This document shows positions 1 through 18,200 of a DNA stretch of 22,951 nucleotides, one piece after another. The position numbers were made by a program, and so were the translations under genes. Source of the stretch: a virus; IMG/VR virus record IMGVR_UViG_3300030406_006621, positions 1,598 to 24,548 of that record. One strand, 5' to 3'. The notes beneath the pieces were generated by a model. The model searched no databases. It saw only the letters and a program-made list of their open reading frames with translations, and was not told where the DNA came from. Every line of letters begins with the position of its first letter. Position 1 is the first letter of the stretch.

Positions 1-599
1 CCAAAAGTATACCAGGTCGTGCCTTTTATTTCGAGACTTATCTACCAGAGTATGCTGCAATGTTTGACAAATTGCCGATCTCTGCCTTCACAACGGATCC
101 AGAGACACCTACACCTGACATGACACTACATAACCTTCAATTCTGGAATTGCATGGATTATGGGGTCGTAGCGGTTCAGAAGCAGTTTATCGGTTCAATG
201 CACTATGAAGTCTATACAAGAGACTTTGGAACACAGACAGGTACATATATTTGTACTTTAGATAACTATCACGAGAGTGTAGATGCAATTGACTACTCTA
301 CAAGTGAACAGCCTGCTGAACATAAGAGTCATAATCTCTTAGAATTGGATAATGGGCAGTTTTGTCTCTATCCAAACAACAGAATGAGGATATATGACAA
401 CAGTATCACTCCTGAGACACCTAAGAATCCCGATTTTAAGGTATCAACCGTGTATTATCAGGTGGAAAATGGTCATGATCGTGATGGATTAGGTTCTGAA
501 GAGAATTATTTCTGGAAAACAGCAAAAGAGAGGAAAGAGAGACTTCCATTTGAACCAGAAAATGAGGTTAGTATCGATATCGAACCAGAATTGGGATAA
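1..599 (+). CDS. Conserved T4-like marine phage hypothetical protein, 5'-truncated by window edge
   Basis: The reading frame is open from the first complete codon (base 3) to the TAA at 597-599. An ATG at 60 gives 179 residues, but I treat it as internal. The upstream in-frame codons read as coherent protein (IPGRAFYFETYLPEYAA running straight into MFDKLPISAF), and there is no convincing ribosome site before 60. The visible part is soluble, rich in aromatic residues and acidic at its C-terminus (EPENEVSIDIEPELG), with no signal peptide or membrane segment. Motifs such as DYGVVAVQKQFIGSMHYEV and DFGTQTGTY look like strongly conserved phage sequence, and I believe similar proteins sit beside the tail/baseplate genes of marine T4-like phages. 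I do not recognise a function. It does not resemble T4 gp53 or the gp5 lysozyme. The position just before gp25 suggests a structural or assembly role, which is inference only. Confidence 0.7.
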   Translation, partial: KSIPGRAFYFETYLPEYAAMFDKLPISAFTTDPETPTPDMTLHNLQFWNCMDYGVVAVQKQFIGSMHYEVYTRDFGTQTGTYICTLDNYHESVDAIDYSTSEQPAEHKSHNLLELDNGQFCLYPNNRMRIYDNSITPETPKNPDFKVSTVYYQVENGHDRDGLGSEENYFWKTAKERKERLPFEPENEVSIDIEPELG

Positions 600-811: not shown

Positions 812-1213
812 ATGGTAGTTAAAATTTCTCGTGCATTTAAGGACATTAGTTTGTCATTTTCGAAGCATCCTGTCACAAATGATGTGATTGTGCTGAAAAA
901 TGAAGATGCAATCAAGAAATCGGTTGTTAATTTATGTCGAACACGCATAAACGAGAGATTTTTTAACGAATTATTAGGTACATCAATTGAAGATTCGTTG
1001 TTTGAAACGAATTTGAATGATATTTCATCATTTTTAGAGAGAGAAATCACTGTTTTACTTGAAAACTTTGAACCAAGAATCAATTTAACAAATGTATTTG
1101 TTGATTCTTTAATAGATTCGAATGAATTACAGATTAGAATTCAGTATGATATCACAGGATTACCATTTCCAACACAAAATATCGAATTTTTACTTCAACC
1201 GACTAGGATATAA
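812..1213 (+). CDS. 25: Baseplate wedge subunit gp25 (GPW/gp25 family)
   Basis: The 133-residue product is almost exactly the length of T4 gp25 (132). It has the family's hallmark EPR motif at residues 87-89, in the context LLENFEPRINL. Upstream is the expected pattern of a helix (EDAIKKSVVNL), then a segment with RINERFFNELLGTSIEDSLFE that corresponds to the T4 block RPFDPEFGCDLSDQLFE. In T4, gp25 sits in the baseplate wedge near gp6 and is the point from which sheath polymerisation starts; homologues occur in contractile injection systems such as T6SS TssE. ATG 812 is the only start that gives the family length. The stop overlaps the gp6 start by one base (TAATG), so the two are probably translationally coupled. 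Confidence 0.93.
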   Translation: MVVKISRAFKDISLSFSKHPVTNDVIVLKNEDAIKKSVVNLCRTRINERFFNELLGTSIEDSLFETNLNDISSFLEREITVLLENFEPRINLTNVFVDSLIDSNELQIRIQYDITGLPFPTQNIEFLLQPTRI

Positions 1214-3096
1214 TGTCATTTACACAGTTCACTAACCTTGATTTCAATACCTTGAGGGCTCAAATTAAAGATTATTTGAGATCTAACTCAAACTTTACTG
1301 GTTTTGACTTTGAGGGATCTAATTTCTCCATATTAGTTGATACTTTAGCATATAATTCTTATATAACTGCATATAATACTAATATGGCTGTCAATGAATC
1401 TTTCATTGATAGTGCAGTTTTACGTGAAAATGTTGTTTCACTGGCAAGAAATATAGGGTATGTGCCAAGATCTACAAAATCAGCAGTTGCACAAATTAGT
1501 TTTACAGTCAATATTGCGGGTTTAAACGCAAGTAGTGTAAGATTAAATGCAGGTATAGTTGCATTAGGATCAATTCAAGGTGGAAATTTCATATTTTCGA
1601 TTCCAGAGAGTATATCAATTAGTCCATCTAGTTCAGGAATTGCTAGTTTTGATAATATTTCAATTTTTGAAGGAACATATTTAACAAAAACCTTTAAAGT
1701 TGATAGTTCTCAAACAAATCAAAGGTTTATTCTTCCAAATCAGAACATAGACACCTCTTCAATTCGTGTTCAAGTTAGTGAAAATGGTCAATCATTAGCT
1801 TATAATCAATTTACTAACATATTTGACGTTGACTCTACTTCAAGATTGTTTTTAGTTCAAGAAGTTTCCGATGAAAGATACCAAATCATGTTTGGTGACA
1901 ATATTTTAGGTCGAAAACCAAAAAATGGAGCAATAATTACAGTAAGTTACATTACCACAAATGGAAAAGATGGTAATAATGCAAGTAATTTTAGTTTTTC
2001 TGGAAGATTAACATACTTTGATGGTGGTACTAAACAAATTAGAAGTAATATATCCACTATAAGCACTCTACAACCATCAGAAAACGGAGATTCGATAGAA
2101 TCTATAGACAATATCAAATATCTTGCTCCAAGAGTCTATGCATCGCAGTATAGAGCAGTTACACCCAATGATTATACGAGTTTAATTCCGTTTTTGTATC
2201 CAAATGTTGAGTCAGTAACTGCGTATGGTGGTGAGGAACTTGATCCACCTGAGTTTGGTAAGGTTTATATTACCGTTAAACCAAAAAATGGAGAATTTTT
2301 ATCTGCTGTAACTAAGGATTCAATTAAGAATGATTTAAAAAAATACACAGTTGCAGGAATTAAACAAGAATTTCTAGATTTAATGTATTTGTACGTTGAA
2401 TACAACACAACGGTCTCATATGATACTGGTTTTATCTCAGATAAACTAAATTTACAGTCCAGAATTGCTTCAGCAATTGAAACATACGGTAAGTCTGCAG
2501 ATATTAACTCTTTTGGTGGAAGATTAAAGTATAGTAAATTATTATCTGTTATTGATGGAGTTGATACTGGAATAACTTCAAATATCACAACTATTGTTAT
2601 GAGAAGAAACTTAGTTCCTCTGTTTAATCAACTTGCCACATACGAAGTTTGTTATGGAAATCAATTTCATGCCGATTTAGAAGGATTTAACGTTCGTTCA
2701 TCTGCATTTAAAATAAGTGGAGTTGATGGTGATTTATATTTGACTGATTTTCCAAATTCTGATCAGGCAACAGGAACAGTCAAATTTTTTAACATTGAAA
2801 ATGGAATTATTAACTATGTTAATCAAAACGCTGGAACAATTGATTACTTAAAGGGTGAAATAAATTTATTTCCAGTAACATTTACATCATCAAACCTAAA
2901 TAATCGAATTGAAATTGAAGTTACTCCAGAATCTAATGATATTGTCGCAAAAGAGAATCTTTACATAGTGCTAGATACTAAGGGAAACAGTAAGTTAAAT
3001 TTACTAGAGGATGTGATAGTTTCAGGTTCCAATAGATCAGCAACTAAGTATGTTGCACCATCTAGTTTCATCAGCAACAAAAAATATACAAGATAA
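1213..3096 (+). CDS. 6: Baseplate wedge subunit gp6 (baseplate J-like)
   Basis: The product has 627 residues against 660 in T4 gp6. The N-terminal region carries the classic gp6/J block: a short helix (LRAQIKDYLRSNSNF), then DFEGSNFSILVDTLAYN, the NESFIDSAVLRENVVSLARN helix and GYVPRSTKSA. This closely parallels DYDFEGSRLNVLCDLLAYN and the following residues of T4 gp6. The middle contains APRVYASQYRAVTPNDYTSLI, typical of J-family proteins. In T4, gp6 dimers form the inner ring of the baseplate, link adjacent wedges and transmit the conformational change that fires the sheath. Start ATG 1213 overlaps the gp25 stop and has AGGA at 1205-1208. The stop is 3 bases before the next gene. The protein is intact and of normal length. 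Confidence 0.93.
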   Translation: MSFTQFTNLDFNTLRAQIKDYLRSNSNFTGFDFEGSNFSILVDTLAYNSYITAYNTNMAVNESFIDSAVLRENVVSLARNIGYVPRSTKSAVAQISFTVNIAGLNASSVRLNAGIVALGSIQGGNFIFSIPESISISPSSSGIASFDNISIFEGTYLTKTFKVDSSQTNQRFILPNQNIDTSSIRVQVSENGQSLAYNQFTNIFDVDSTSRLFLVQEVSDERYQIMFGDNILGRKPKNGAIITVSYITTNGKDGNNASNFSFSGRLTYFDGGTKQIRSNISTISTLQPSENGDSIESIDNIKYLAPRVYASQYRAVTPNDYTSLIPFLYPNVESVTAYGGEELDPPEFGKVYITVKPKNGEFLSAVTKDSIKNDLKKYTVAGIKQEFLDLMYLYVEYNTTVSYDTGFISDKLNLQSRIASAIETYGKSADINSFGGRLKYSKLLSVIDGVDTGITSNITTIVMRRNLVPLFNQLATYEVCYGNQFHADLEGFNVRSSAFKISGVDGDLYLTDFPNSDQATGTVKFFNIENGIINYVNQNAGTIDYLKGEINLFPVTFTSSNLNNRIEIEVTPESNDIVAKENLYIVLDTKGNSKLNLLEDVIVSGSNRSATKYVAPSSFISNKKYTR

Positions 3097-3099
3097 GAA

Positions 3100-6000
3100 A
3101 TGTCTGATAAAAAAGTTAAAATTTCAAATATTCTTGGTACCCTAATACCAGATTTTATACAAGCAGATAATCCTTTATTTAAAGAATTTCTAACTCAATA
3201 CTATGAATCTGAGGAACGTGAGTATGGATCTACATACCTATCTGAAAATTTACCATCTTTTAAAGAAATATCAACTTTATCAAATATTTCTTTAGTTGAA
3301 AACCAAACGGTAACTTTACCAAATTCAACTAAACCCATATCTCCAATTACTTTAACAAATGATATTTTTGCATTTGATGATGTTATTGATGTAAGCACAA
3401 CTGAAGGGTTTCCAGACAAATATGGACTTTTAAAAATTAATGATGAAATAATTACATATACTAGTAAAACATCTACATCATTTTTGGGATGTGTTCGTGG
3501 TTTTAGTGGTATATCGAATATTAAATCAGTAGGTAATCCTGAATTTTTAACATTTAGTGAAACAGAAGCAAATTCACATGATGCAAATACAGTAATTATC
3601 AATTTAGGTTTTATTTTTATATCAGAATTTTATAAAAAATTTAAACGTCAGTTTTTAGTTGGACTAGAAGAAAAACAATTTACAAATGGTTTAAATGTAG
3701 AAAATATTTTATCGAGAGCTAGAGATTTTTATGGTTCAAAAGGAACTGATACATCATTAAAAATACTTTTTCAAATTTTATTTGGAAAACAGGTTGATGT
3801 GATAAAACCTTTTGATTATACTATAATGCCATCTGAAGCTGACTGGGATGTAACAGATGATATTATAGTTGAAACATTAGTCGGTGATCCAACAAAATTA
3901 ATTGGATTAACAATATATGAAAATTCATTTATTAATCCCACTGCTACTGGTTCAGTATCAAATGTTGAGTTTAAGTTTATAGAAAATAAAAAATACTATA
4001 AAATATCTTTTTCAAAGGATACCATAACTAATAGTTTTACAGTACCATCAAAAACAAAGGTAGTAGGGGCTGGATCTACAACTGAAGTCATTACAGTAGA
4101 CTCTACAATTGGATTTGGAGAAGATGGTAATTTTTTCTATAAAGATGCTGATAACATTTATCGAAAAGCAACATATACTTCAAAATCTAGTAATCAATTT
4201 TTTGGATGTGTTGGAATTACGACTGTATTAGTAGAATCTGATTTAATAATTGACGGTAATTCTTTATATGGATATGAGGATAATGATTTAACTAAAATTT
4301 GTCAGATGCGACTTGTAGGATCAATATCAGAAGCTTCTGATAATAAAAATACCACAAAATATTTTGATGATGGCGATTCAATTAGAGTTAAACATCTTGG
4401 TGAGAAAGTTGAATTAGATGATAAGAAATTTAATACTTGGTTTTATAATAATCTATCCTATATTGATGCTCAAGTTAGTCAAGGATTTTTAGTAACTAAA
4501 GAACCTCATTTTTTAAAGAAGAATGATATTATTACAATTATACCAAAACAAACAGGAAGTTCCACAGTTTTTAATTTTAGAATTGATACTATTGCTAATG
4601 ATTTATCGATAACAGCACCATCAGAAATACAAGGACTTGAAGGAAAAGAGTTTGTAATTAAAAAAATTATAACTTATGCATCTAATAATTTTGGTATTGA
4701 ATCTTTGTTATCTAATATTCAAAATACTTTTTTAGATAACGAAAAAAATACTTATGTATCTTTTTCTGGATATCCTTCTTTTTCAAGTGGTAGTGGAGAA
4801 TCTTTAGGTGATATCACTAATGTAACTGATAGATCTCAAACTTTTTCCTTTGTTGGTTTAGGAACAGGTGATCAAATTTTAGACCCAATTAATATAAATG
4901 ATCATAATTTTGTAAATGGAGAAAGAGTTCATCTTACTTTAAATACAACAGGTATTGGATCAACTGCACGACATGGTGTCTCTGGAGTGAGCACTGGATA
5001 TTACTATGTAAATGTTGTAGATACTGATAATATTAGATTATCTGCAAGTCTTCCTAATTTATATAACAATAAAATTGAAATAGTAAAATATACTGGTGAA
5101 GAAGGAGAAATCAAAACTTTAAATCATATAATCAAACCAGCAAAATTATATGATGGTGGTAAATTAAAAAATCAAAATAATTTTAAAAGAATATTCAGAA
5201 CTCCAAAAATTGAAGAAGCTAGTCTCTTTAACTTAAATACTAAAAATAAAAAAATAAAAGGTGCGATTGGTGTAACATTAAATGGAATTGAATTACACTC
5301 TCCAATTTCTAATGATTCTGTTTATTATGGACAAATTAATCACATAAATGTCGCAAATTCTGGTTCACAATTCAATGTTGCAAATCCACCATCAATATCA
5401 ATAACAGACGATACTGGTAGTGGTTGCATATCTTTTGTTAATTTTTCTGGAAAAATTGAAGAAGTATTTTTAAATACTGCAGGATTTGATTATCCAGAGA
5501 CACCAGTAGTTACAATAACTGGGGGTAATGGGTCTGGTGCTGTCTGTGAAGCAAAAATGAGAGGATATACTTACTCGAAATCATTTATAGGAAACGATAT
5601 TGATATATCAAATAATAAATTTTTGGGTGAGCATAGATTTTCTGATGGTGAAGAGGTAACATACTCTACTACTGGAAATCCAATAGGTATTAACACTGGT
5701 GTAAATGTTGGTTTTACTACAGATTTACTATCATCAAATACATCATATTTTGTAGCAAAAATAGATGAAAATTCTTTTAGTCTTGCAATTAATAAAAATA
5801 ATGCTTTAAATAAATCTAATTTAATAGAATTTTTACAATTTGGAACAAACTCACATATTTTCACTTCTAAAAAGATAAGAAAAAAAATTGACAGAATTAG
5901 TATTCTAAATGCTGGTTCTTCCTATAGTAATAAAAGAGTATCAATACTATCTCAAGAATATCCACCATCAAGTAAAAAAGATGTATTTAGAACCTTTGTA

Positions 6001-9000
6001 GGGATAAACACTTTTAATAATTACATCTATGCAAAGAATCATAATTTTAAAAATGGTGATAATGTAGAATATACATGCACTGGAACTGAAATTTCTGGAT
6101 TATCAACATCTAAACTTTACAAAGTTACTATTCTTGATGAAAATAAATTTAAACTAAGTGATGCTGGAACAATATCTACCATCACAAGTTTAAATTTTGA
6201 TAAAAAAATATTTGAAAATATTTCTAGTGTTGGTGTTGGTACTCATGTATTTAAATATCCAGATATCAAAGTAGAAATTAGTAACACAGTTTCAATTGGA
6301 AATACAAATATTACTCCAGATTATTATAAAGCTTCAGCTGAAGTATTAGTTAAGGGTAGTATTTCTAACGTTTTTATAAGAAATGGTGGTGTTGGATATG
6401 GAGTAAGTAATATAATAAATTATGAAAAACAACCAGTAATATCTTTACTAACTGGAAGTGATGCATCTTTATCACCAGTAATAATAGATGGAAAAATAAC
6501 TAATGTAATTGTAAGTAATCCAGGTAAAAATTATACAACTCCACCTGAATTAGAGGTGGTTGGAGTTGGAGGTACAATTGGCGAATTTGCTAAATTGAGA
6601 TCTATAGTTGGAACAGGAGTATCTGAGGGTAAAATAATAGGTGTTAAGATAATTAATCAAGGTGCTGGATATGATAAATTTAATACAATAATTAATGTAG
6701 TTCCTGCAGGAAAAGATGATTTATATAAGGCTGACATATTTGAATGGAATATAAACGCAGTTCAAAGACATGATGCTGTTTTAAATAGTGATAATTTGGA
6801 AATGATTCAAGAAAAATCAAATTATCCAAATGCAGGAAATAAAGTTTGTTCATTTTATCCTCCACAAAAATATAGAGAATATTTAAATGATGATAATTCT
6901 GTAACTGAACATTCAAAAATAATTGGATGGGCATACGATGGCAACCCAATTTATGGGCCAATTAGTGTCAAAAGCACTGGAATAGGTCTTACATTTATGC
7001 AATCTAGTTATGAGTTAGATGTTATAACAGATTTTACCATAAGACCTCCACAATCAAATTATCCTTTTGGTTATTTTACTAATGATTACGTATATAATTC
7101 TAAAGGTGATTTGGATGAATATAATGGCAAATTTGTAATTAATAATGATTTTCCAAATGGAACTTATGCTTATTTTACTACTATTGATAATACTATTTTA
7201 AAACCTGTTTTTCCATACACTACATTGTTGCATAGAAATGAAACAGATGATTTTAATTATGATTTATTTAAAACACAGTCTGATACTGTATTAAACAGTG
7301 GTGATTATAAAAGAAATGTTACCCATTTAGGAATAAATGAAAAAACAAGAAGATACCCTCTTTTATCTGATTCCATAAATTCAGATGTTTTACTTAAAGT
7401 TGATGGAATTAAATCATCAAATATAAAAAATATAGAAATTGAAGAATCTGGAACAAATTATAAAGTTGGTGACCAATTAAAATTTAATGATCCGACTATA
7501 ACAGCTAGAGTTAGTGAAATTTTAGGAAAATCTATAGTTTCAGTTGGAACAACAAATACAATTGTTGATAATTTAAAGTTTTCAATAATTGATAATGAAA
7601 TCACTGGATTGTCAACTATTCCTCACGGACTTTCCTCTGGTAATATTGTTGAAATTACAGGAATTTCATCAACTCTTTATAAAGATATAGAAGGTATAAG
7701 AACAATTAGTGTAGAGACCCTTACATCAGCTACTACAGAAAATATAGACACATCAGATGTTGGGATAACTACATTTGTATCATTTTTTGATTCTACTTTA
7801 AGTAGAAAATTTAAAATAAATGATGTAATACAAATAGGATCTGAACAACTTTTAATTATTGATCATGATGATGTAAATAATCGTCATAGAGTAATAAGAG
7901 GGCATAATTCTACATTTCCTAGTGCTCATAACTCTGGATCTATAGTAACTAGATTAGAAACTAAATTTACATACCCAATTGAAAAAACTTTGGTGAGTAA
8001 AAACTTTGATTTACCAAAAGTAAAATATTTTGAAGGATTAAAATCAGTTGGAATTGGAACTACCGTTACTAAAGTTGCTGTTGGAAGGGTAGGAACTAAT
8101 CCAGGTATAGGAACAATTTTTAAATCAATTCCACCAAAAGCAATATATTTACCAAATCATGATTTTGAAAATGGCGAAGAAGTTAGTTTAGTTTCTCTAG
8201 GATCTACTATTATTGGATCTTCAAATATTGATTTATCTAATTCTTTTGATTTAGAAACATTTGATACATTTTTCTGTGTAAAATTAAGCAATGAATATAT
8301 TGGTTTATCCACTCAAAAAGATAGGGTTGGTTTTAATACTAGTCATATATTCTTTAAAGAGATATTAACTACTGCTGGAGATAATAATAAAATAGAAACT
8401 CTTAGTGATAATGTAACAGGAAAATTAAGAAGAGTAAATGGTAAAGTAGTTGTTTCAACTTCAACTACAACTGGACAACAGCATGGTCTTTCAATTGGTG
8501 ATGAATTTAGATTAAACATTACATCAGATAGAATACAAACTTTTGATTTTAGATTTAATGAAACAATTAGAAAATTAGTTGTTAATCCTGTTTCATTTGA
8601 ATCAACTGATATTGGAGTGGGAACAATCTCATCTAAAATTACAATTAATGAACATGATTTTGAAACTGGAGATGTAGTTGTTTATAATTCTTCAAGTCCA
8701 GCTACACCTTTAGTTGATAATGGTGTTTATTATGTAATAAAAGACTCTATAGATACGATAAGATTAGCTGAAAATGCTAGTGATTTAATAGTGACACCTT
8801 ACAATTATATTGGAATTGGAACAACTGGTGCACCTACTCATCAAATATCAAAAATAAATCCAAAACTTAAATTTTATAAAAATAATAAAATAGAATTTTT
8901 AACTTCAGATTCAAGTTTAACTGATTTTGATATAGATTTTTATACTGATGAAAATTTCATATCACAATTAACTAACAATTTAATTTCAAGATCTGGTATT

Positions 9001-12000
9001 AATGGTGATGGTGATAGTGAAACTAAAACAATTATTTCTGTTGGAAGTCCTTTACCAAGTAAATTTTATTATAGAATCCAAGGAAGAGAAGATAATTTTA
9101 CAAAAACATTATCAAATTTTGTAAATGATGATGTTCCAAATAATTCTGAGATTGTTATTTTAGATTCAGAATTTAATAATCCATTTAAGGTTGTAGGAAT
9201 AGGAACAACGACTATTGAGTTTAATCCTACAGGAATTGCAGAAACTAATTTATACCAATCATCTGGATTATCATCAGCATTTTACTCTACAAAATCCACA
9301 GGAGAAATCGGTGGAATTTTTAAAATAGATATCTTAAATCGTGGATTCGAATCTACAAAGTTACCAATTTTGACCTCAATAGCATCAACTCAAGGATCTA
9401 ATGCAATTTTAAAAATAGAAAGTAATGATATTGGAACTGTTAATAGCACAAGAGTTTTAGATCAAGGTGGTGAATTTTCTCCAGATAAAACCTTAAAACC
9501 AAAAGCAGATAGTAACGTAATTTTAGAATTAAAAAATGTATTTACTTTAAAATCAATTGGTATATCATCTGGAGGAAGAAATTATACTACTCCACCAAAA
9601 GTCATAGTTGTTGAAAATCCAAATATAGTGACTAGAACTTCAATAAATGGAAGTTCAGTTAGAAATGTTGATATTTTATCTAATGATAGCGGATTAACAA
9701 AAGACGTAAGAGTTATTCCAACTATAAATTCAAATGGGGTTGTTGTTACTCAGGCACAAACAAATAATTTTGGAACAGTAACTTTATCATTGAGGGCTCC
9801 TAATGCAGATTACTCTTCAGAGGGCAGTGGTTTTTATAATCAAGGTGGTAGTTTCCCATTTGAAGTAGGAGATGAGATATTCGTTGAAAATGTTAAAATA
9901 ACTAATGATGCAGACGGATATAATTCTAGTGATTATGATTATAAATTCTTTACAGTGACTGGTATTAATACTGAGGGTGGTGTAGAAACAGTTTCATATT
10001 CTTTAGTTGGTTTAGGAAGCACTGGAGGAATTTATCAGCAAGATAATAACTTTGGTAGAGTTATAAAAAAAGATGATCTAGCAGTTTTTAAACCTGAATT
10101 TGAAAAAATTTCATTTTTTGAAAATGAATTAATTACTGTAACAGGAAAAGATGTTTCAGGTATAGTTGCCGAAAGGGGATGGGATCCAGAGGCACAAACA
10201 TTAAAAGTTTTTGATGTAACAGGTAATTTTGAAAAAAATGATAATATTTTCGGATCATCCAGTAATAGCAAATCAAAAGTTACTAATCAATTTAAATTTG
10301 ATTTTGATTTAGACGTTAGTAGCACAGCAAAAAAAGAAAATAATTGGAAAACTAATATTGGAATATTAAATTCAAATATTCAAAAACTTCATGATAATGA
10401 TTACTATCAAAGATTTGCATATTCAATTAAAGGTGAGATTCCTTACTTAACATGGAAGAATTCTGTTGATAGTCTTGCACATATTTCTGGATTTAAAAAT
10501 TTCTCTGATTTGGGAATACATTCAGAAGGTAAGCAAACATTAAAGTCAGATGCATCACTTGGTTTAAATGTTAATATTGAAAATGAAGCTTCAGTTCACG
10601 AAGAATACAGTTATGATTTAGTTTCTGAAAACACTGATGATCCCAATTTATCAAAACTAGTTACCTTTAATTCTAAAATTTTAACAGACTATAATGAATC
10701 AGTTACAAATAAAGTTTTATTAATTGATGATATTAGTCCTCAATTCACTGGTATAGTAACCACCATTGGTGGAGGAGTGATTGGAATATCTAGTTTTAAT
10801 TTAACAATTAATGGTGAATCTCTATTCCATAAAACATTTGATCCTGCCACTGGTGTCAATACTACTACATCTCATAATATTCAAATACCTAATCATCAAT
10901 TTAATACTGGCGAAGAATTAACTTATAAACCTTTTAATAATCAACCTATAGGAATAGCAACTACTAGCGTTACAGGTATAGGTTTAACTAATTTATTACC
11001 ATCCACTGTTTTTGCAATAAGAGAGGATAATAATACAATTAAAGTTGCAGTTGCTGCTAGTTTTGCAAATTCTGGGATTGGAGTTTCATTTACAAGAGGA
11101 ACAGGAATTGGACATACACACTCATTTTCTGCTTCACCAGTAAATTCTTCTATTAGAGCATTGATTAGTATTGATAATGTTATTCAAAGTCCAGTTGGAA
11201 TAACAACAGCAATTTCTGTTGGTCTTGCAACTACTGTTGGGGTAGGTAGTACATCTATTTTCTTAAATGATATTTCAGATATTTCTGGAAAATCACTTTT
11301 AAGGATAGAGGATGAAATATTAAAAGTTAATCTTGTTGGAGTAGGATCAACTAATTCTTTAAGTGTTGAGAGAGGTCAAATGGGAACTGTTGCCACTGCA
11401 CATACAGTTGGTGCAGGAATAACAGTATTAAAAGGTGATTATAGAATTAAAGAGGGAGTAATTTACTTTACCGAAGCACCATACGGGCCAACTGGAATAT
11501 CTGGAATAACTACATTTTCATCATTTTCTGGAAGAGCATATTATAGGTTAGATTATTCAACTAATGCAATTATTGATGACATATCTGATAGATTTGACGG
11601 TTCTACCGATAAATTTAATTTAAGCACAAATGGGCAACAAGTGATAGGTATTCAATCATCTTTTGGTGCTTTCTTGATCAATAATATTTTCCAAAAACCT
11701 TTCTTAAACAGTCAAGAAAGTGCAGGAACATTATCTTCTTCAGATTACCAATTAGTCGGAACTGGTCAAACTGTTGATTTTACAGGAACAAGTGGTAATA
11801 AAGATTTACCTAGAGGTGGTATTATAAATGAATTTGATGTTGGAATTGGAAGTGGATATCAATCTCCAAGAACAGCTTTACTTAGTGCTGTTGTTTCAGG
11901 ATTAGGAACTGTTCAATCTGTTGGAATTATAACTGGTGGTGCAGGATACTTAAATGATCCATTAGTTTCAATAGATTCTACTAGTGGAGTGGGAGCAGCA

Positions 12001-13626
12001 ATTTCAGCTTTCGTTACTGCAGGAGTAGTAACCTCAGTTGTTATCAATAATGGAGGTAGTGGTTATCCTCCTACAGGAATTTCAACAGGTTTAAGTTTTG
12101 TTACTGTAGAACCTCCAAGTCCCTATAAAAATCTTCCATTAACATATGTCGGAGGATCACCAACACAAACAGGATCTGGTGCTGAAATAGACGTTGTAGT
12201 AGGAACTGGTGGTAGTATAATATCGTTTGATATGACAAATCGTGGTATAGGTTACGAAATTGGAGACGTTTTAGAATTGACATCTATACCATTCCAAACA
12301 GGAACTGCAACAACAACATTTAAGGTAACTGTTAGAAATAAATTCCAAGATAAGTTTGCTGGATGGTGTTTTGGTCAATTAATTGAACTTGATAGTTTTG
12401 CTCCACAGTTTAACGGGTTTAGAAAAACATTCCTAATAACAAGATCACTAGAAACTACAGAATATTATAGTGTTGTTGCAAAAGAAGGGTCTGGAATTAT
12501 ATTACAAAATAATTTCTTAATTTTTGTTAATGATATTTTACAAAAACCAGGTGTTGACTACTTATTTACCAGTGGTACTAGATTTACATTTAGAGAGGCA
12601 CCTAGAAAGGGAAGTACCTGTAAGGTATATTTCTACACTGGATCTGCAGAAGATTTTAACTCAGTAAATATTGATGAAACAATAAAACCAGGTGATAAAC
12701 TAAGATTACAAGCATTTGGTGATGTATCTGGACAAGAAAGTAGAGTAGTGTATGAACTAATAGCAGCAAAAACATTAGAGACACAAACTTACTATGATGT
12801 TGGTATATCAACTGATGCTGAATTTGATAGACCAACAGTATGGAGAAAACAAACTGAAGATATGGTGATTGATGGTTTAAAAATTTCTAAAGAAAGAAAT
12901 TATCTGGAACCTAAAATATCACCAGTATCTGGAATTATAAAATCTGTTTCTCCTTTAGATACTAAAATTTATGTAAAAGATAGTTGGTCATTCCATGAGA
13001 TCGACGGATTAGAGTCAAATCAAAATGATATTACAATTGTATCATTAGGATCAACACCTTCAGTTGAACGAATAGAAGGTGTGACTTATGAAGGTGACTA
13101 TGGTGATATTATTGGAATTGGCACTATAACAAGTGGAATAAACACATCTGGGCCAGCAATATTTTTTGATATCAGAACAAGTTCTAATATTTACCCACAA
13201 AATACGAATGCCATACAAAATGATGAGAGAGAAATAAGCGGTATTTCTACTGGCGATTATTTTGTAATAGAAAATACATTCTTTGGAAGTGATTCTAGTG
13301 GAGTTACTGGAATTAGAACCACCACATCTGGGCCAGAAATAATCGGTGTAGGAACTAATTTCTTAGATAATGTTTATTTTGCTGAAGATATAGTATCAAT
13401 AGGTTCATCTACAGTTAGAGTATTTTCCAATGTTTTATCAATTTCTGGAATAATTACATCAAGTTCTCCATCTTACCATACTCTAGGTAATTACAGTTGG
13501 GGATTTGTTAATGTTTCCAGAAATAATAAGTCGAAATCATTCACTTTCCATAATCAAAATGGTATTTCAGGTATAAACACCTCTGCCCAAGTGATAAGAA
13601 CATTTGGTCTAAAAACAAAATATTAA
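3100..13626 (+). CDS. Giant gp7-position baseplate wedge/virion structural protein, 3508 aa, with YHYH domain
   Basis: One uninterrupted frame encodes 3508 residues between gp6 and gp8, the place of gene 7 in T4. Residues 11-35 (IPDFIQADNPLFKEFLTQYY) and about 163-277 (RDFYGSKGTDTSLKILF, then ETLVGDPTKLIGLTIY) resemble the C-terminal quarter of T4 gp7, so this is probably the wedge protein that joins gp6, gp8 and gp10. The remaining 3200 residues are modular and beta-rich: about eleven GGxGY-type repeats (746-1204, 1442-1474, 2073-2174, 2938-3062), about seven H-x-F-x-x-G-[ED] repeats, four E-x-x-x-RG repeats, three 'FxG...VNDxLQxP' segments near 2541, 2824 and 3096, and a YHYH-like domain at about 1220-1365. 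Many V-G-I-G-T-T-type turns separate modules. No signal peptide or membrane segment is seen. T4 gp7 has about 1032 residues. Gene 7 identity is inference; structural function is near certain. Confidence 0.75.
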   Translation: MSDKKVKISNILGTLIPDFIQADNPLFKEFLTQYYESEEREYGSTYLSENLPSFKEISTLSNISLVENQTVTLPNSTKPISPITLTNDIFAFDDVIDVSTTEGFPDKYGLLKINDEIITYTSKTSTSFLGCVRGFSGISNIKSVGNPEFLTFSETEANSHDANTVIINLGFIFISEFYKKFKRQFLVGLEEKQFTNGLNVENILSRARDFYGSKGTDTSLKILFQILFGKQVDVIKPFDYTIMPSEADWDVTDDIIVETLVGDPTKLIGLTIYENSFINPTATGSVSNVEFKFIENKKYYKISFSKDTITNSFTVPSKTKVVGAGSTTEVITVDSTIGFGEDGNFFYKDADNIYRKATYTSKSSNQFFGCVGITTVLVESDLIIDGNSLYGYEDNDLTKICQMRLVGSISEASDNKNTTKYFDDGDSIRVKHLGEKVELDDKKFNTWFYNNLSYIDAQVSQGFLVTKEPHFLKKNDIITIIPKQTGSSTVFNFRIDTIANDLSITAPSEIQGLEGKEFVIKKIITYASNNFGIESLLSNIQNTFLDNEKNTYVSFSGYPSFSSGSGESLGDITNVTDRSQTFSFVGLGTGDQILDPININDHNFVNGERVHLTLNTTGIGSTARHGVSGVSTGYYYVNVVDTDNIRLSASLPNLYNNKIEIVKYTGEEGEIKTLNHIIKPAKLYDGGKLKNQNNFKRIFRTPKIEEASLFNLNTKNKKIKGAIGVTLNGIELHSPISNDSVYYGQINHINVANSGSQFNVANPPSISITDDTGSGCISFVNFSGKIEEVFLNTAGFDYPETPVVTITGGNGSGAVCEAKMRGYTYSKSFIGNDIDISNNKFLGEHRFSDGEEVTYSTTGNPIGINTGVNVGFTTDLLSSNTSYFVAKIDENSFSLAINKNNALNKSNLIEFLQFGTNSHIFTSKKIRKKIDRISILNAGSSYSNKRVSILSQEYPPSSKKDVFRTFVGINTFNNYIYAKNHNFKNGDNVEYTCTGTEISGLSTSKLYKVTILDENKFKLSDAGTISTITSLNFDKKIFENISSVGVGTHVFKYPDIKVEISNTVSIGNTNITPDYYKASAEVLVKGSISNVFIRNGGVGYGVSNIINYEKQPVISLLTGSDASLSPVIIDGKITNVIVSNPGKNYTTPPELEVVGVGGTIGEFAKLRSIVGTGVSEGKIIGVKIINQGAGYDKFNTIINVVPAGKDDLYKADIFEWNINAVQRHDAVLNSDNLEMIQEKSNYPNAGNKVCSFYPPQKYREYLNDDNSVTEHSKIIGWAYDGNPIYGPISVKSTGIGLTFMQSSYELDVITDFTIRPPQSNYPFGYFTNDYVYNSKGDLDEYNGKFVINNDFPNGTYAYFTTIDNTILKPVFPYTTLLHRNETDDFNYDLFKTQSDTVLNSGDYKRNVTHLGINEKTRRYPLLSDSINSDVLLKVDGIKSSNIKNIEIEESGTNYKVGDQLKFNDPTITARVSEILGKSIVSVGTTNTIVDNLKFSIIDNEITGLSTIPHGLSSGNIVEITGISSTLYKDIEGIRTISVETLTSATTENIDTSDVGITTFVSFFDSTLSRKFKINDVIQIGSEQLLIIDHDDVNNRHRVIRGHNSTFPSAHNSGSIVTRLETKFTYPIEKTLVSKNFDLPKVKYFEGLKSVGIGTTVTKVAVGRVGTNPGIGTIFKSIPPKAIYLPNHDFENGEEVSLVSLGSTIIGSSNIDLSNSFDLETFDTFFCVKLSNEYIGLSTQKDRVGFNTSHIFFKEILTTAGDNNKIETLSDNVTGKLRRVNGKVVVSTSTTTGQQHGLSIGDEFRLNITSDRIQTFDFRFNETIRKLVVNPVSFESTDIGVGTISSKITINEHDFETGDVVVYNSSSPATPLVDNGVYYVIKDSIDTIRLAENASDLIVTPYNYIGIGTTGAPTHQISKINPKLKFYKNNKIEFLTSDSSLTDFDIDFYTDENFISQLTNNLISRSGINGDGDSETKTIISVGSPLPSKFYYRIQGREDNFTKTLSNFVNDDVPNNSEIVILDSEFNNPFKVVGIGTTTIEFNPTGIAETNLYQSSGLSSAFYSTKSTGEIGGIFKIDILNRGFESTKLPILTSIASTQGSNAILKIESNDIGTVNSTRVLDQGGEFSPDKTLKPKADSNVILELKNVFTLKSIGISSGGRNYTTPPKVIVVENPNIVTRTSINGSSVRNVDILSNDSGLTKDVRVIPTINSNGVVVTQAQTNNFGTVTLSLRAPNADYSSEGSGFYNQGGSFPFEVGDEIFVENVKITNDADGYNSSDYDYKFFTVTGINTEGGVETVSYSLVGLGSTGGIYQQDNNFGRVIKKDDLAVFKPEFEKISFFENELITVTGKDVSGIVAERGWDPEAQTLKVFDVTGNFEKNDNIFGSSSNSKSKVTNQFKFDFDLDVSSTAKKENNWKTNIGILNSNIQKLHDNDYYQRFAYSIKGEIPYLTWKNSVDSLAHISGFKNFSDLGIHSEGKQTLKSDASLGLNVNIENEASVHEEYSYDLVSENTDDPNLSKLVTFNSKILTDYNESVTNKVLLIDDISPQFTGIVTTIGGGVIGISSFNLTINGESLFHKTFDPATGVNTTTSHNIQIPNHQFNTGEELTYKPFNNQPIGIATTSVTGIGLTNLLPSTVFAIREDNNTIKVAVAASFANSGIGVSFTRGTGIGHTHSFSASPVNSSIRALISIDNVIQSPVGITTAISVGLATTVGVGSTSIFLNDISDISGKSLLRIEDEILKVNLVGVGSTNSLSVERGQMGTVATAHTVGAGITVLKGDYRIKEGVIYFTEAPYGPTGISGITTFSSFSGRAYYRLDYSTNAIIDDISDRFDGSTDKFNLSTNGQQVIGIQSSFGAFLINNIFQKPFLNSQESAGTLSSSDYQLVGTGQTVDFTGTSGNKDLPRGGIINEFDVGIGSGYQSPRTALLSAVVSGLGTVQSVGIITGGAGYLNDPLVSIDSTSGVGAAISAFVTAGVVTSVVINNGGSGYPPTGISTGLSFVTVEPPSPYKNLPLTYVGGSPTQTGSGAEIDVVVGTGGSIISFDMTNRGIGYEIGDVLELTSIPFQTGTATTTFKVTVRNKFQDKFAGWCFGQLIELDSFAPQFNGFRKTFLITRSLETTEYYSVVAKEGSGIILQNNFLIFVNDILQKPGVDYLFTSGTRFTFREAPRKGSTCKVYFYTGSAEDFNSVNIDETIKPGDKLRLQAFGDVSGQESRVVYELIAAKTLETQTYYDVGISTDAEFDRPTVWRKQTEDMVIDGLKISKERNYLEPKISPVSGIIKSVSPLDTKIYVKDSWSFHEIDGLESNQNDITIVSLGSTPSVERIEGVTYEGDYGDIIGIGTITSGINTSGPAIFFDIRTSSNIYPQNTNAIQNDEREISGISTGDYFVIENTFFGSDSSGVTGIRTTTSGPEIIGVGTNFLDNVYFAEDIVSIGSSTVRVFSNVLSISGIITSSSPSYHTLGNYSWGFVNVSRNNKSKSFTFHNQNGISGINTSAQVIRTFGLKTKY
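3130..3930 (+). other. Segment encoding the gp7-like core (residues ~11-277)
   Basis: This N-terminal part of the giant gene holds the only region I can relate to T4 gp7. The shared points, from memory of T4 gp7, are IGTMMPD versus LGTLIPD, a DFYSTKG versus DFYGSKG turn at residues 209-215, the following helix with LF-x-x-L, and DSLTEDLVGQTIY versus VETLVGDPTKLIGLTIY. A repeat unit (residues about 93-137) appears inserted between the two halves of the core. Confidence 0.6.
5335..6710 (+). repeat. Cluster of protein repeats (GGxGY modules 1-5, plus two H-x-F-x-x-G modules)
   Basis: Five diverged copies of a unit of roughly 30-40 residues fall at residues about 746-784, 785-820, 1088-1117, 1132-1166 and 1178-1204. 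Each has the shape [IV]-x-x-[IV]-x-[IVL]-x-x-x-G-x-x-[YF], often followed by a PP-x-[IV] strand and a TGSGA-like turn, for example NTAGFDYPETPVVTITGG, NPGKNYTTPPELEVVG and IINQGAGYD. Two H-x-F-x-x-G units (about 842-905 and 977-1024) lie between copies 2 and 3. Conservation is at protein level; the DNA copies have drifted. Confidence 0.7.
6757..7194 (+). other. Segment encoding a degenerate YHYH-type domain (residues ~1220-1365)
   Basis: The encoded stretch contains the YHYH-family landmarks: W-A-Y-D-G-N-P-I-Y-G-P at residues 1277-1287, then LDEYNGKFVINNDFPNGTYAYF ending at residue 1359 (cut here as LDEYNGKF and DFPNGTYAYF). In the family the last motif is usually Tyr-His-Tyr-His; here it reads YAYF at 1356-1359, so both histidines are lost. 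YHYH domains are known from many environmental bacterial and marine phage structural proteins; their biochemical role is not established. Confidence 0.7.
11911..12285 (+). repeat. C-terminal cluster of GGxGY protein modules
   Basis: Three copies occur in a row at residues about 2938-2970 (VGIITGGAGYLNDPLVSI), 2976-3007 (VVINNGGSGYPPTGIS) and 3039-3062 (FDMTNRGIGYEIGDVLEL). Their order and spacing resemble a short tandem array. They precede the segment with NDILQKPGVDYLF that closes the repeat-rich part of the protein. Confidence 0.7.
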
Positions 13627-13661: not shown

Positions 13662-15245
13662 ATGCCAGCAATAATCACTGACCAATATCGAATTTTAAAC
13701 GCAGAAACTTTTATAGACAGTTTTGTAGGTATTGGTACAACTGGAAATAACAATTATTATACGTTTTTAGGACACCCAAATCCTACTTATACTGGTGTTC
13801 CAGAATATGGAAATATAAGATGGTTGAGTGAAACACCAAATCCTACAGATTCTTTTAGTCAAGAGAATAGATTCTACGACAGTATGTTATTTTTAAAGAA
13901 AGTAACTCCAGATGACGTAAGAAGAGTTGTTCATAGATTAAATTGGCAAAATGAGACCATCTATGAGATGTATAAAAATAATTATACACAAGAAAGTATA
14001 AGTCCCCAAACAAAATCCACATCACTTTATCCATCCAATTATTTTATACTTACATCAGAGTTTAAGGTGTATGTTTGTATTAATAATGGACAAGACGCAG
14101 ATAATAAAAAAGGAAAACCATCAAAAATTGAACCCACTCATATTTCAACAAATGTTCCTATAATTGGTTCTGATGGTTACCAATGGAAATATCTTTTTAC
14201 CATATCACCATCTGACATAGTTAAATTTGTTACTGATAAGTATATACCTTTACCAAAAGAGTGGGGTGATGTAACAACAAAAAATATAAAAGATGCTGCT
14301 ATAGATGGAAAAATTGAAGCAGTATTAGTTACAAATTTTGGAAATAGTATTAAAATAGATGATGCTGATGGAACAATTTTACTTCCAATATCTGGTGATG
14401 GAACTGGTGGAGAAGTGCTAGTTACCGTTAGTCAAACTAAAATTACAAAAGTTGAAATATCTTCAGGTGGTTCTGGGTACACTTATGGATCGGTAGAATT
14501 TGTTAATGAAAAAGAATATCCACAAGGTAACAATCCTGCAAAAAAATTAAATATTGGTGATGGAACTGCTAGTTTTGAGGTTATTATTCCACCAAAAGGT
14601 GGTCATGGTGCTGATGTTTATCGAGAACTTGGTGCTTACAGAGTGATGCTTTATTCTAAATTTGATAATAGTATTGATGATGGTGCTGACTATGTTACTC
14701 AAAATAATTTTTCTCGTGTAGGAATAGTTAGAAATCCAATCAAACACGATTCAATTGAACTTCTAAATAGTACGACTGCCACTAATTTAAGAGCATTAAA
14801 ATTAAAAGCAGTTGGAGTTAGTACATATTCATTTACTGAAAATGAGGTAATCACACAAGTTTCTAACGCTGGAACCGCAGTTGGTCTTGTAGCTAGTTGG
14901 GACGAAAACACTCAAGTATTGAGGTACTATCAACCAGTTGGTTTTTCAACAAGATCTGATTATTCATTTAAACAACTTCAATTTATTGGTGAGGATACCG
15001 ATGGTACCAATCCACCAATAAAAAATACTAGTAATGCTGTCGATCCCATTGTTGATACTACATTTAATGGACAAACATTGTCACTTGGTTCTAGAAATAT
15101 TAACTTAGGACAACAGTTTGTCAGTGGAGTTGCTGCTCCAGACATTAAAAAATATTCTGGTGATATCATATACATTGATAACAGAGCACCAGTAACAAGA
15201 ACATCTTCACAAAAAGAAGAAGTAAAAATAGTTATAGAGTTCTAA
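13662..15245 (+). CDS. 8: Baseplate wedge subunit gp8
   Basis: The product has 527 residues; T4 gp8 has 334. The N-terminal part (residues 1-200) shows GSDGYQWKYLFTISP, matching GDGYVWEYLFEIPP of T4 gp8. The C-terminus, SGDIIYIDNRAPVTRTSSQ followed by EEVKIVIEF, matches T4 SGEMIYMENRPPI...EEINILFTF closely. RVGIVRNPI corresponds to QISIITNPL. The extra length is central: about residues 260-320 carry a GGSGY module like those in the giant protein, and residues about 390-433 carry a GLVASWDENTQVLRYYQP module. The IPPKGGHGADVYRELGAYR stretch is typical of marine T4-like gp8 as I recall it. In T4, gp8 dimers sit in the wedge and contact gp7 and gp10. The start at 13662 follows a perfect late box, with no good Shine-Dalgarno. 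The stop is 4 bases before the next ATG. Confidence 0.92.
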   Translation: MPAIITDQYRILNAETFIDSFVGIGTTGNNNYYTFLGHPNPTYTGVPEYGNIRWLSETPNPTDSFSQENRFYDSMLFLKKVTPDDVRRVVHRLNWQNETIYEMYKNNYTQESISPQTKSTSLYPSNYFILTSEFKVYVCINNGQDADNKKGKPSKIEPTHISTNVPIIGSDGYQWKYLFTISPSDIVKFVTDKYIPLPKEWGDVTTKNIKDAAIDGKIEAVLVTNFGNSIKIDDADGTILLPISGDGTGGEVLVTVSQTKITKVEISSGGSGYTYGSVEFVNEKEYPQGNNPAKKLNIGDGTASFEVIIPPKGGHGADVYRELGAYRVMLYSKFDNSIDDGADYVTQNNFSRVGIVRNPIKHDSIELLNSTTATNLRALKLKAVGVSTYSFTENEVITQVSNAGTAVGLVASWDENTQVLRYYQPVGFSTRSDYSFKQLQFIGEDTDGTNPPIKNTSNAVDPIVDTTFNGQTLSLGSRNINLGQQFVSGVAAPDIKKYSGDIIYIDNRAPVTRTSSQKEEVKIVIEF

Positions 15246-15249
15246 ACCG

Positions 15250-18200
15250 ATGCCTCAAAATACCAATTTAAACGTTTCACCATATTTTGATGATTTTGTA
15301 GATAGTAAAAACTATCACAAGGTTTTATTTAAACCTGGTTTTCCAGTACAAGCAAGAGAATTAACTACATTACAATCAATCCTTCAAAATCAAATTGAAA
15401 AATTTGGGCAACACTTCTTTAAAGAAGGGTCAATGATTATACCAGGTGGTACTTTTTATGATGATAGGTATTTTGCGGTTAAAATTGATCCTAATTTTTT
15501 AAATATTCCAGTTAATGTATATACTAAATTTTTAGCGGATAATAAAATAGAAATAAGGGGAGAAACATCTGGTGTCGAGGCAACTGTAGTTAATAGAATA
15601 ACTGCACAAGAATCAATTGACGGATTTGATACTTTATATGTAAAATATACAAAATCTGGTTCAAATGGAACATCTAAAGTATTTCAAGATGGTGAAAACT
15701 TAATAACTCTATCTACAATTAATTATTTAAACACAAGTATATCAACAAACAGTCAGTTTGCAAGAACTATTGTTTCTGGATCAACTGCAACTGGATCATC
15801 ATTTTCAGTAAATGAAGGTGTTTATTTTATACGTGGATTTTTTGTAAAAACAAATGCATCAACAGTAATTTTAGACCAATATAGCAATTTACCTAGTTAT
15901 AGAGTAGGATTTTTACTAAAAGAAGAAACAATAGGGCCATCATCAGTTAATTCTGATTTGTATGATAATGCAAAGGGATTTTCTAATGAGGCTGCTCCAG
16001 GTGCTGATAGATTTAGATTTTCAACAACTTTACACAAAAAATCTCTAGATGATATTGAAGATTTAAACTTTGTTGAACTTTTACGAGTTGAATCTGGTAT
16101 TGTCAGAGAAATGGTGACAAAAACCGAATATAATATATTTGCAAGAGAGTTAGCAAGAAGAACTTATGATGAATCTGGTGATTATTATATCAGACCATTT
16201 TCAGTTAACGTAAGAGAATCACTTAATGATAGATTAGGTAATAGAGGAATATATTTTGATACACAAAAAACACAAAATGGAAACACACCATCAGATGATA
16301 TTATAAGTTTGCAAGTTTCTTCAGGAAAAGCATATGTAAGAGGATATGAAGTTGATAAATTTTCAACATCATCTATCGACGTATTTAAACCAAGAGAAAC
16401 AAAATTAGTAGAAAATCAAAGTGTTCCAATTAGAATAGGAAATTCACTAACAATTACGAATGTTGTCGGATCACCAACAGTTGGGTTTTCAAATAATGCT
16501 AAATTTAAACTTCTAAGTAGGAGATTAGATGCTCAAAAGAGTGTTTCTGCTGATCATGCTTTAATTGGCAATAATATTATAATTGGAGATGCTAGATCCT
16601 TTGATTATAGTAGAAAAACTGCTGTTGGTGTTGCAGTTAGTTCTTTTGATTTAAAATTTTATGATCTTCAACTTTACACTGTTTTAACAGTAGCAAATAA
16701 TTTTTCAGCAACTAGTATTCAAATACCTGCAGATGCACATGTTAAAGGTAAATTTAGTGGATCTGTGGGATATGCGGTAGAAGCAAAAAATAGTGGAAAT
16801 TCATTGTCTCTTCGTGATGTAACTGGAGATTTTCAACTTAATGAACCTTTAATTATCAATGGAAATGAATCTGGTAATAATATTACAGCAATTGTAGATA
16901 ATAGTTTTGAGGATATCAAAGCAGTGCATAGTTCCGATGGTATCGGATCTGGAAATACAACATTTGCTGCTGATACTTTATTGGATCGTGAGAAACAAAT
17001 ATTTAAAACAGCAGTAGAATTTAAGATAACTGCTGCAGATTCAAATACTGGTATTGCAACTATTAGTGGTGCTGCGGTTCAAGATTTTAGATCAGTTGTA
17101 AAAGAAAATGATGTCCTTAGTTTTACTGATACTAATGGTGTTGGTGCTCCTCGTTTAGTGAGAGTAAATGGGATAGGTGTTGGTGGGACAGATTTTCAAA
17201 TCATTAACGTACCAGATGTTACTGGAGTTACTAAAGCTTTCATTACAGGATCTTCACCAACTGATTTGCTTATTCGTATTCCAACTTTAACTAGAGGAGA
17301 TGATCCTGGTTTTAGAATTAAATTAGCAGATAGATTTATTTCTTCAATGAATACTTTAGATAGTTCATATATTACAAGAAAACAAGGCACAAAAACTAAT
17401 TTCTCTAATGCGACTGTCACTTTTAATATTAGTGATATGAGTAGTGGAGATACTACTGATTTATTTTTTGAACCATTTACATCATCAAATTATACTCTAG
17501 AACTTCAAACCAGTTCAGATTTTGGTAAAGTTGAAGAACTTTTTGCTCCAATGGTTAACGTAGATACGGGAGGAAAAACAGTTACAATTTCTGGTTTATC
17601 TGTAGCAGGTGGTAATAATACATCTGCTGTGCTAACTGCTGCAGTGAAAAGAACCTCAATATCTTCAAAAGAAAAATCTCTTGTAAGATGCAATGTTGTA
17701 GATGTAGTTAATTCTAGTGATGCCTCATCTGGTATTACAACTCTTACAAAAAATGATGGATTAACTGTAAGTAATGTTTATGGAACAAGAGTTCAAGATA
17801 ATGAAATATCTTTAAATGTTCCTGAAGCAACTCGTGTATTAGCAGTGCTTGAGTCTGATAGTAAGTTAGATCCTACTTTACCAACAATTGGAGTTAGTAA
17901 TCAAAGTGATACATTTACTAATAATGTATTAGTAGGAGAGCAATTTATAGGTAATAGATCAGGTGCAGTTGCCCGTGTAGTGGTGGTAGGAGCAACTCAG
18001 TTATCTTTTGTTTATGAAAATGATGTTACATTTGAAATTGGTGAAAACATCACTCTGAGAACCTCTGGGATACTAGCCACAATAACTACATTAGTTCCTG
18101 GTAGTAGAAATATAAAAGATAACTACACTTTAGATGATGGGCAAAGATTAGAATTTGCAGATTTTTCTAGAATTGTAAGAAAAGAAAATACAGAAAATCC

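Follow-up and report, generated by a model that had tools for sequence, protein, structure and literature searches.

A giant gp7 gene between gp6 and gp8

The DNA analyzed here, which we call the window, makes up 22,951 bases of a virus contig 24,548 bases long and carries the following cluster of genes:

812..1213 (+): gp25, baseplate wedge; Pfam GPW_gp25 (3e-11), PHROG 261
1213..3096 (+): gp6, baseplate wedge; Pfam Gp6-like_1st (7.5e-15), PHROG 219 (8e-191)
3100..13626 (+): giant gp7 of 3508 aa; PHROG 2885 'baseplate wedge subunit' (2317 bits)
13662..15245 (+): gp8, baseplate wedge; Pfam Phage-Gp8 (8e-14), PHROG 438 (3.5e-144)
15250..22677 (+): 2475-aa ORF of the same cluster; DUF4815, PHROG 358; has the R module (see below) in common with gp7

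The giant gene is a single open frame, its 3508 codons running uninterrupted on the plus strand. The PHROG 2885 profile covers most of the protein, the best of four matching stretches being residues 1-2550. Homologs of residues 1-2900 were found in 480 phage records, chiefly of Synechococcus and Prochlorococcus phages, and many of the 60 homolog records listed carry the label 'baseplate wedge initiator' or 'subunit'. The gp7 of P-SSM2 (AAX44489, 5195 aa) occupies the same gene place and is 30% identical over 98% of residues 1-2900. For the adjacent gp6, the best PDB matches were T4-group chains, with T4 gp6 at 4e-37. A DNA-level search among phages with the window gave no match, and phmmer with the whole 3508-aa protein gave none in the PDB at E<=1. 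We conclude that the 3508-aa ORF is the gp7 ortholog of a T4-like marine phage of cyanophage type, an assignment that is not new, as giant cyanophage homologs are already annotated as gp7.

Upstream of gp25, a partial ORF (3-599) matches PHROG 3704 at 8.6e-76, a family labelled ferredoxin. At the other end of the cluster, the place corresponding to the 2475-aa ORF is held in S-CREM2 by gp124 (2668 aa, 'hypothetical'), for which an excerpt of PMC10665884 gives 450 unique peptides, the highest count in the virion table there.

Core segments and the inserts between them

The N-terminal region of the window protein was compared with T4 gp7 by several routes. BLASTP against a 15-protein database aligned window residues 205-287 with T4 gp7 729-812 (E 4e-5), while tblastn with residues 1-300 matched query residues 200-300 to about residues 782-867 of the 1155-residue nt-1 gp7 (E 2e-4). 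When a profile of this region from the window and 40 relatives (40 of 80 loci) was searched against 177,635 PDB sequences, three matches were obtained up to E 10, the top two being T4-group gp7s (1.3e-5 and 2.1e-5); the first was T4 gp7 itself, with profile positions 193-223 on T4 728-758. By hhalign, the same profile matched that of the T4 gp7 family, built from 26 of 27 loci (L100 dropped) with T4 and nt-1 added, at E 1.9e-9. Within these matches, the KG segment (T4 722-758) is present in the window protein on the PDB and hhalign evidence, and the helical segment alone gave a weak direct match to T4 (0.26). The PHROG family of T4 gp7 is phrog_964; phrog_708, tried as the T4 gp7 family, was wrong.

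A first-pass annotation of this DNA had placed the gene between gp6 and gp8, likened its first residues to the late part of T4 gp7, proposing a profile match to gp7 as the check, and taken the N-terminal part of T4 gp7 to be absent. The Pfam and PHROG matches of both neighbours confirm the first of these points, and the BLASTP, PDB and hhalign results agree with the second. As to the third, a profile of T4 gp7 1-640 that picks up nt-1 gp7 at 1e-217 had no match in the window protein at E<=10, which also rules out that the T4 N-terminal part lies hidden within an insert. The Straboviridae-type N-terminal ~640 residues, a narrow criterion for the T4 group, are accordingly lacking from the window protein, and T4 residues 920-1012 (domain VI) were not found in it either.

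The course of the core along the rest of the protein was followed with profiles of compact gp7s. From 80 compact loci, 48 of which were read, we built a 379-position profile of 31 viral-contig compact gp7s and BUCT-ZZ01 that excludes the window and T4, with L164, L180, L202, L206 and cores of at least 480 residues dropped; a second compact-core profile used 34 of the 80 loci. The giant gp7 divides on this basis as follows:

3106..3273 (+): core segment 1, spanning residues 3-58, where a helix-turn-helix of the core bundle is predicted; compact-core profile
3274..3615 (+): insert 1 (residues 59-172), falling between positions 57 and 63 of the profile and holding a single R module at 99-154
3616..4170 (+): core segment 2 (residues 173-357), carrying the FYGSKGTDTSLKILFQILFG motif and the beginning of a beta domain; compact-core profile
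4171..10299 (+): insert 2, about residues 358-2400; between profile segments, with an alignment of insert-2 relatives
6883..7197 (+): YHYH domain, residues 1262-1366; Pfam PF14240 (4.6e-20)
10300..10524 (+): core segment 3, spanning roughly residues 2401-2475 and bearing the motif YYQRFAYSI...W...V..L.H.SGF..F; compact-core profile
10525..13623 (+): C-terminal tail of residues 2476-3508, in which more modules occur; alignment of tails

Segment 1 matched positions 2-57 of the compact profile at E 4e-6 (the second profile gave 7-58 at 1.3e-5) and aligns with T4 649-684; the helical core-bundle segment of T4 (643-689) is thus present by way of the compact cores, which match the T4 family at 8.6e-13. 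Segment 2 followed at positions 63-248 with residues 173-355 (7e-17; 173-357 at 6e-17 with the second profile), aligned with T4 722-758, and segment 3 at positions 266-375 with residues 2337-2475 (1.9e-12), the second profile ending its match at 2471 (1.1e-11). In the segment 3 alignment, taking model columns only, the window reads IGILNSNQKLHDNDYYQRFAYSIKGEIPYLTWKNSVDSLAHISGFKNFSDL and T4 reads YVIKSNLPSSRWKSDVIRFVHPVGFGFI. The three segments of the window follow the order of T4.

Chance scores for the second profile, taken from 200 shuffled and one reversed version of the window protein, never exceeded 6.1 bits, as against 52 bits for segment 2 and 35 for segment 3; segment 1 scored 14.8 bits, and among chance matches beginning within the first 20 positions the best had -4.5. 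The 379-position profile reached 7.6 bits (E 0.003) on its best reversed protein, that of Melnitz, so isolated weak matches to it mean little. Segment 3 accompanies segment 2 in 54 of the 55 closed ORFs that hold the latter, several of these being the same contig fetched twice; it is missing from L070 (1753 aa). All three segments occur in seven other giants, namely P-SSM2, P-HM1, S-CAM9, DSL-LC03 (whose segment 1 is a weak match, 0.004-0.02), Sf-FS3, S-H38 and ACG-2014a. In P-SSM2 gp7 they lie at residues 10-65, 169-296 and 2437-2522. Taken together, the profile matches suggest that the conserved gp7 core is split open by inserts into three ordered pieces that make up a discontinuous domain, a reading to which we assign a probability of roughly 85%.

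The first-pass annotation was therefore right that a conserved core is kept, but it had taken only the first ~277 residues as gp7-like and had ~3200 residues of modules follow them, whereas the core is interrupted at about residues 59-172 and resumes in a segment ending at 2471-2475. Because segment 3 ends there, the core encloses ~2,000 residues and is followed by ~1,030. Of the modular extension that had been put behind the core, the repeat modules are real, but about two thirds of it lies within the core.

Insert 1 measures ~115 residues, insert 2 ~2,000 and the tail ~1,030. Insert 2, whose end is uncertain between 2337 and 2400, holds three kinds of module and the YHYH domain. With iterated models, the window protein yielded at E<0.001 nine modules of kind G (GGxGY), seven of kind H and three of kind R, of which eight G, six H and three R were seeds and match themselves by construction; new beyond the seeds were G 748-795, H 1686-1744 and the R module of the 2475-aa ORF. 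On reversed sequences, the best E in the last round was 0.1 for G, 0.09 for H and 0.75 for R. The counterpart of the G module is domain I of gp18, the sheath protein of T4 (PF22639, found at E<=1 in 13 of 34 compact cores, best 1.6e-7), and gp18-type sheath chains were matched in the PDB by the second compact-core profile at 9e-7 to 2e-5, its best matches being gp7 chains. Positions 176-307 of the compact-gp7 profile match the T4 record NC_000866 at 98677-99096 (E 9.6e-10), in a frame which we take to be gene 18. Searched against the PDB, the alignments of insert 2 and of the tail gave one chance-level match each (E 0.81 and 0.037).

The inserts might be mainly receptor-binding parts rather than wedge scaffolding, which would be compatible with a split core and which we regard as rather unlikely. 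The modules are beta-rich, the YHYH domain is present in all 17 members of the insert-2 alignment, and two further Pfam domains appear weakly among them, E1_FCCH in 8 of 17 (best 3e-4), to which the H module may weakly correspond, and End_beta_barrel of phage endosialidase in 4 of 17. Against this, the conservation of insert 2 is only slightly under that of the core segments, with 58% versus 65-82% identity among 13 close relatives and 36% versus 42-47% among 6 far relatives; the most variable stretch is residues 501-700, at 40-45% in the close set. Since the gap in conservation between insert 2 and the core is small, a structural role is favoured for most of insert 2 over a fast-changing receptor-binding part.

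Membership of the third segment in gp7

A profile of the third segment in the window's family, with 36 members (35 of 39 fetched loci and the window), was compared with compact cores and with T4 by hhalign. It matched the second compact-core profile at 8e-15, and the latter matched the T4 family at 8.6e-13 over segments 1 and 2 and at 1.8e-4 (probability 48%) in segment 3, which it places at T4 862-891 (E 0.12), nt-1 919-950 (3e-4) and Aeh1 967-997 (3e-3). The HPxGF segment of T4 (862-895) is thus present in the window protein via the compact cores, by the 1.9e-12 and 1.8e-4 matches. The direct link from the third-segment profile to T4 is weak (E 0.07 for the whole, 0.016 against T4 820-1032), falls at T4 864-889 and has a score exceeded by 1 of 200 column shuffles; the segment 3 of T4 gp7 itself reached the compact profiles at only 0.03-0.12.

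Vi01 gp7 is a full-length match of Pfam PF23786 (Baseplate_wedge), which was found at E<=1 in 34 of 34 compact cores and in 39 of the 41 members of the N-terminal profile, window residues 1-360 scoring 12.4 bits, under the curated cut-off of 27 bits. Isolated third segments of other large and mid-size gp7s matched the end of PF23786 in six of seven cases, with E from 4e-4 to 0.065 and every score under the curated cut-off, the third segment of P-HM1 being without a match.

The weak direct match to T4 could mean that all of the gp7 core lies within residues 1 to ~300, the rest being a C-terminal extension and the HxxGF segment an unrelated module, and it would fit that the third-segment profile had no PDB match at E<=10 and that none of its 36 members matched PF23786 at E<=1. 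We consider this improbable, given the matches of segment 3 to compact gp7 cores (1e-11 to 1e-12), in addition to the profile-profile match of 8e-15, and given its position in other gp7s. In Vi01 (284 aa), the three segments lie at 12-46, 170-221 and 234-280, so that the last two nearly touch, and a single run spans nearly the whole model in the gp7s of pf16 (523 aa) and BUCT-ZZ01 (607 aa); unlike in the window protein, the inserts of these compact gp7s are small or absent. S-CREM2 gp122 (1937 aa) has a split core at 14-57 (weak, 0.003), 158-237 and 1846-1920 and, unlike the window protein, nearly no tail, segment 3 being its C-terminal end. Since the gp7s of Vi01, pf16, BUCT-ZZ01, the T4 type and S-CREM2 hold segment 3 too, we take it to be part of gp7. 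An excerpt of PMC10665884 reports S-CREM2 gp122 in virions, with 91 unique peptides and 27.2% coverage.

It is scarcely credible that segment 3 is instead a mobile module recurring in several structural proteins and uninformative on gp7, in the way that GGxGY recurs in T4 gp18 domain I and many ORFs and the R module in the 2475-aa ORF, because in nine whole phage records the matches reaching model position 336 or beyond lie inside the gp7 gene in every case (8 of 9 records). The T4 record has no match reaching that position at E<=0.01, and matches outside gp7 are confined to positions 140-320; one match, reaching position 335, runs across the end of S-CREM1 gp7 and includes stops. As regards a second gp7 gene elsewhere, the part of the profile free of repeat modules matched nowhere outside the gp7 gene in these nine records.

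Possible architecture and history of the enlarged wedge protein

AF2 gave a poor model of window residues 1-360 (pLDDT 58; helices 8-15, 18-23, 25-39, 200-214 and 216-228), and its structure matches, a list filled by the 69-171 part, included no gp7, a result that carries no weight against the assignment. The model of residues 1-400 of a compact gp7 (L161) reached pLDDT 68, with a good beta part at ~140-330 and values below 50 at residues 334-400, including segment 3. Of 547 Foldseek matches to this model, two fell under 0.001 and both were gp7 (9f4a and 5iv5), although the TM-score for the entire model was low, at 0.17. VIA-align of the model with the gp7s yielded Z 10.5 (89 residues, rmsd 2.8) for one and Z 10.2 (87 residues, rmsd 2.6) for the other, the best non-gp7 row having Z 5.9, and set model residues 136-332 on gp7 763-853; Pfam assigns T4 gp7 766-861 to domain V. 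Because this stretch of 197 model residues shrinks to 89 in the alignment, extra residues must lie in or beside domain V in the compact form. The GGxGY module lies in the same region, at ~220-305 of the compact model, and insert 2 of the window protein enters close by, after model position ~247. Judged from these models, insert 2 would sit inside domain V.

In T4, gp7 is a monomer present six times per tail, and wedge assembly is strictly ordered (from a passage of PMC3004832). By analogy with T4 and XM1, segments 1 and 2 would link a pair of gp6 chains at the core bundle and trifurcation, while segment 3 would fold back onto these two segments, such that the three segments may hold the gp6-gp7 joint while the inserts make up the periphery. 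Anchored at either end, insert 2 would run out of the inner joint and back into it as a closed loop, and could form a large peripheral part of the wedge. The inserts likely grew by repeated gain of the GGxGY beta module, since this module lies at the insertion point of compact gp7s.

We hypothesize, tentatively and with more doubt than confidence, that in marine cyanophages the inner wedge protein has in this way come to form much of the outer baseplate, as a gp6-gp7-anchored, module-grown loop of some two thousand residues or more that replaces gp9-gp12 of T4 in some lineages. Across 15 records, the gp9/gp10 N-domain (PF07880) was found in seven and gp11 (PF08677) in two, T4 and nt-1. Neither was matched in the records of P-SSM2, DSL-LC03, S-CAM9, P-HM1 and HTVC008M, which fits a giant gp7 standing in for these proteins. 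Against replacement, Sf-FS3, S-CREM1, S-H38 and ACG-2014a have a giant gp7 together with the gp9/10 N-domain, and BUCT-ZZ01, Vi01 and Xanthomonas phage X1, with compact gp7s, likewise lack matches to both domains. Divergence beyond detection would also give the same picture.

Across phages, gp7 forms an evolutionary series in size from the 284-aa wedge protein of Vi01 to 6064 aa in ACG-2014a. In the compact viral-contig ORFs the core match begins at residue 51 or earlier in 47 of 48 (at 117 in L213), the gp7s of Vi01, BUCT-ZZ01 and pf16 start with the core, and XM1 gp17 (242 aa), called the T4 gp7 ortholog in a section of PMC10457771, has the core helices at 1-48. A move of the core to the N-terminus in the window's lineage, as had been supposed, is thus not supported, since these forms are already core-first; for the same reason, the T4 group appears to be the lineage that added residues in front. 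T4 gp7 (1032 aa) has the helical, KG and HPxGF segments in the same order as the window protein, with ~640 residues in front and none of the window's inserts.

An unrooted gp6 tree of 57 rows, which leans towards compact forms because those were fetched by their likeness to BUCT-ZZ01 and which leaves out S-CREM2, pf16 and phiM12, set the nine phages with a giant gp7 apart by a branch with support 99/94 that is present in 100% of 200 bootstrap trees. The three T4-type phages with the N-terminal addition lie on one side of a 100/100 branch, and the remainder are compact and mid-size forms, with Vi01 on a very long branch beside the giants; Sf-FS3 is the nearest row to the window. This tree and XM1 gp17 therefore suggest that an N-terminal core is the common state, and that two lineages enlarged gp7 in different ways.

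The NCBIfam family TIGR02242 provides a bridge to P2 gpI. It matches P2 gpI at 6e-6, phiM12 gp7 at 1e-5 and window residues 190-250 at 5e-4, all below its cut-off of 51.85 bits, window 1-360 scoring 20.1 bits and P2 gpI itself 26.3. P2 gpI, which had no match to the compact-core profiles, has 176 aa and XM1 gp17 242 aa, as against 3508 aa in the window. A passage of an older review (PMC3004832) counts gp7 among the T4 proteins that are extra relative to P2 and Mu, which runs against the XM1 paper, as far as its cited section goes, and the TIGR02242 link.

In an excerpt of a 2010 comparison of 26 T4-like genomes (PMC3037559), gp7 is listed in the non-cyanophage core; that cyanophage gp7 was left out of the shared core could be because the core pieces are short and lie thousands of residues apart. 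The giant form itself is known, but the annotations of P-SSM2 gp7, which has three core segments like the window and a longer tail, and of other 'baseplate wedge initiator' proteins leave the split core unmentioned, and we found no printed account of a split-core map of gp7 in the open-licence literature. With such a map, structures of T4-like phages of the ocean can be read from fixed anchors; no solved baseplate close to those of these phages turned up among the PDB matches of the window gp6 and of S-CREM2 gp122 (the latter without a match at E<=1).

Several existing labels touch on this family. PHM1_095, a second 'gp7' of P-HM1 (L247:26825-31501), was rejected as gp7 on the 1558 aa covered, as it has the GGxGY module and its best other match is at E 0.48. 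The proteins in the gp7 place of Vi01 (L241:10766-11620) and HTVC008M (L246:4983-8033) are annotated 'head closure Hc2', yet carry the gp7 core; this label, borne also by PHROGs 460 and 3465, looks misleading. Two kinds of gene order occur behind gp7: the next gene matches the gp9/gp10 N-domain in ACG-2014a (L243), S-H38 (L248), Sf-FS3 (L091) and Melnitz-3 (L010), and is annotated gp8 in P-SSM2 and P-HM1.
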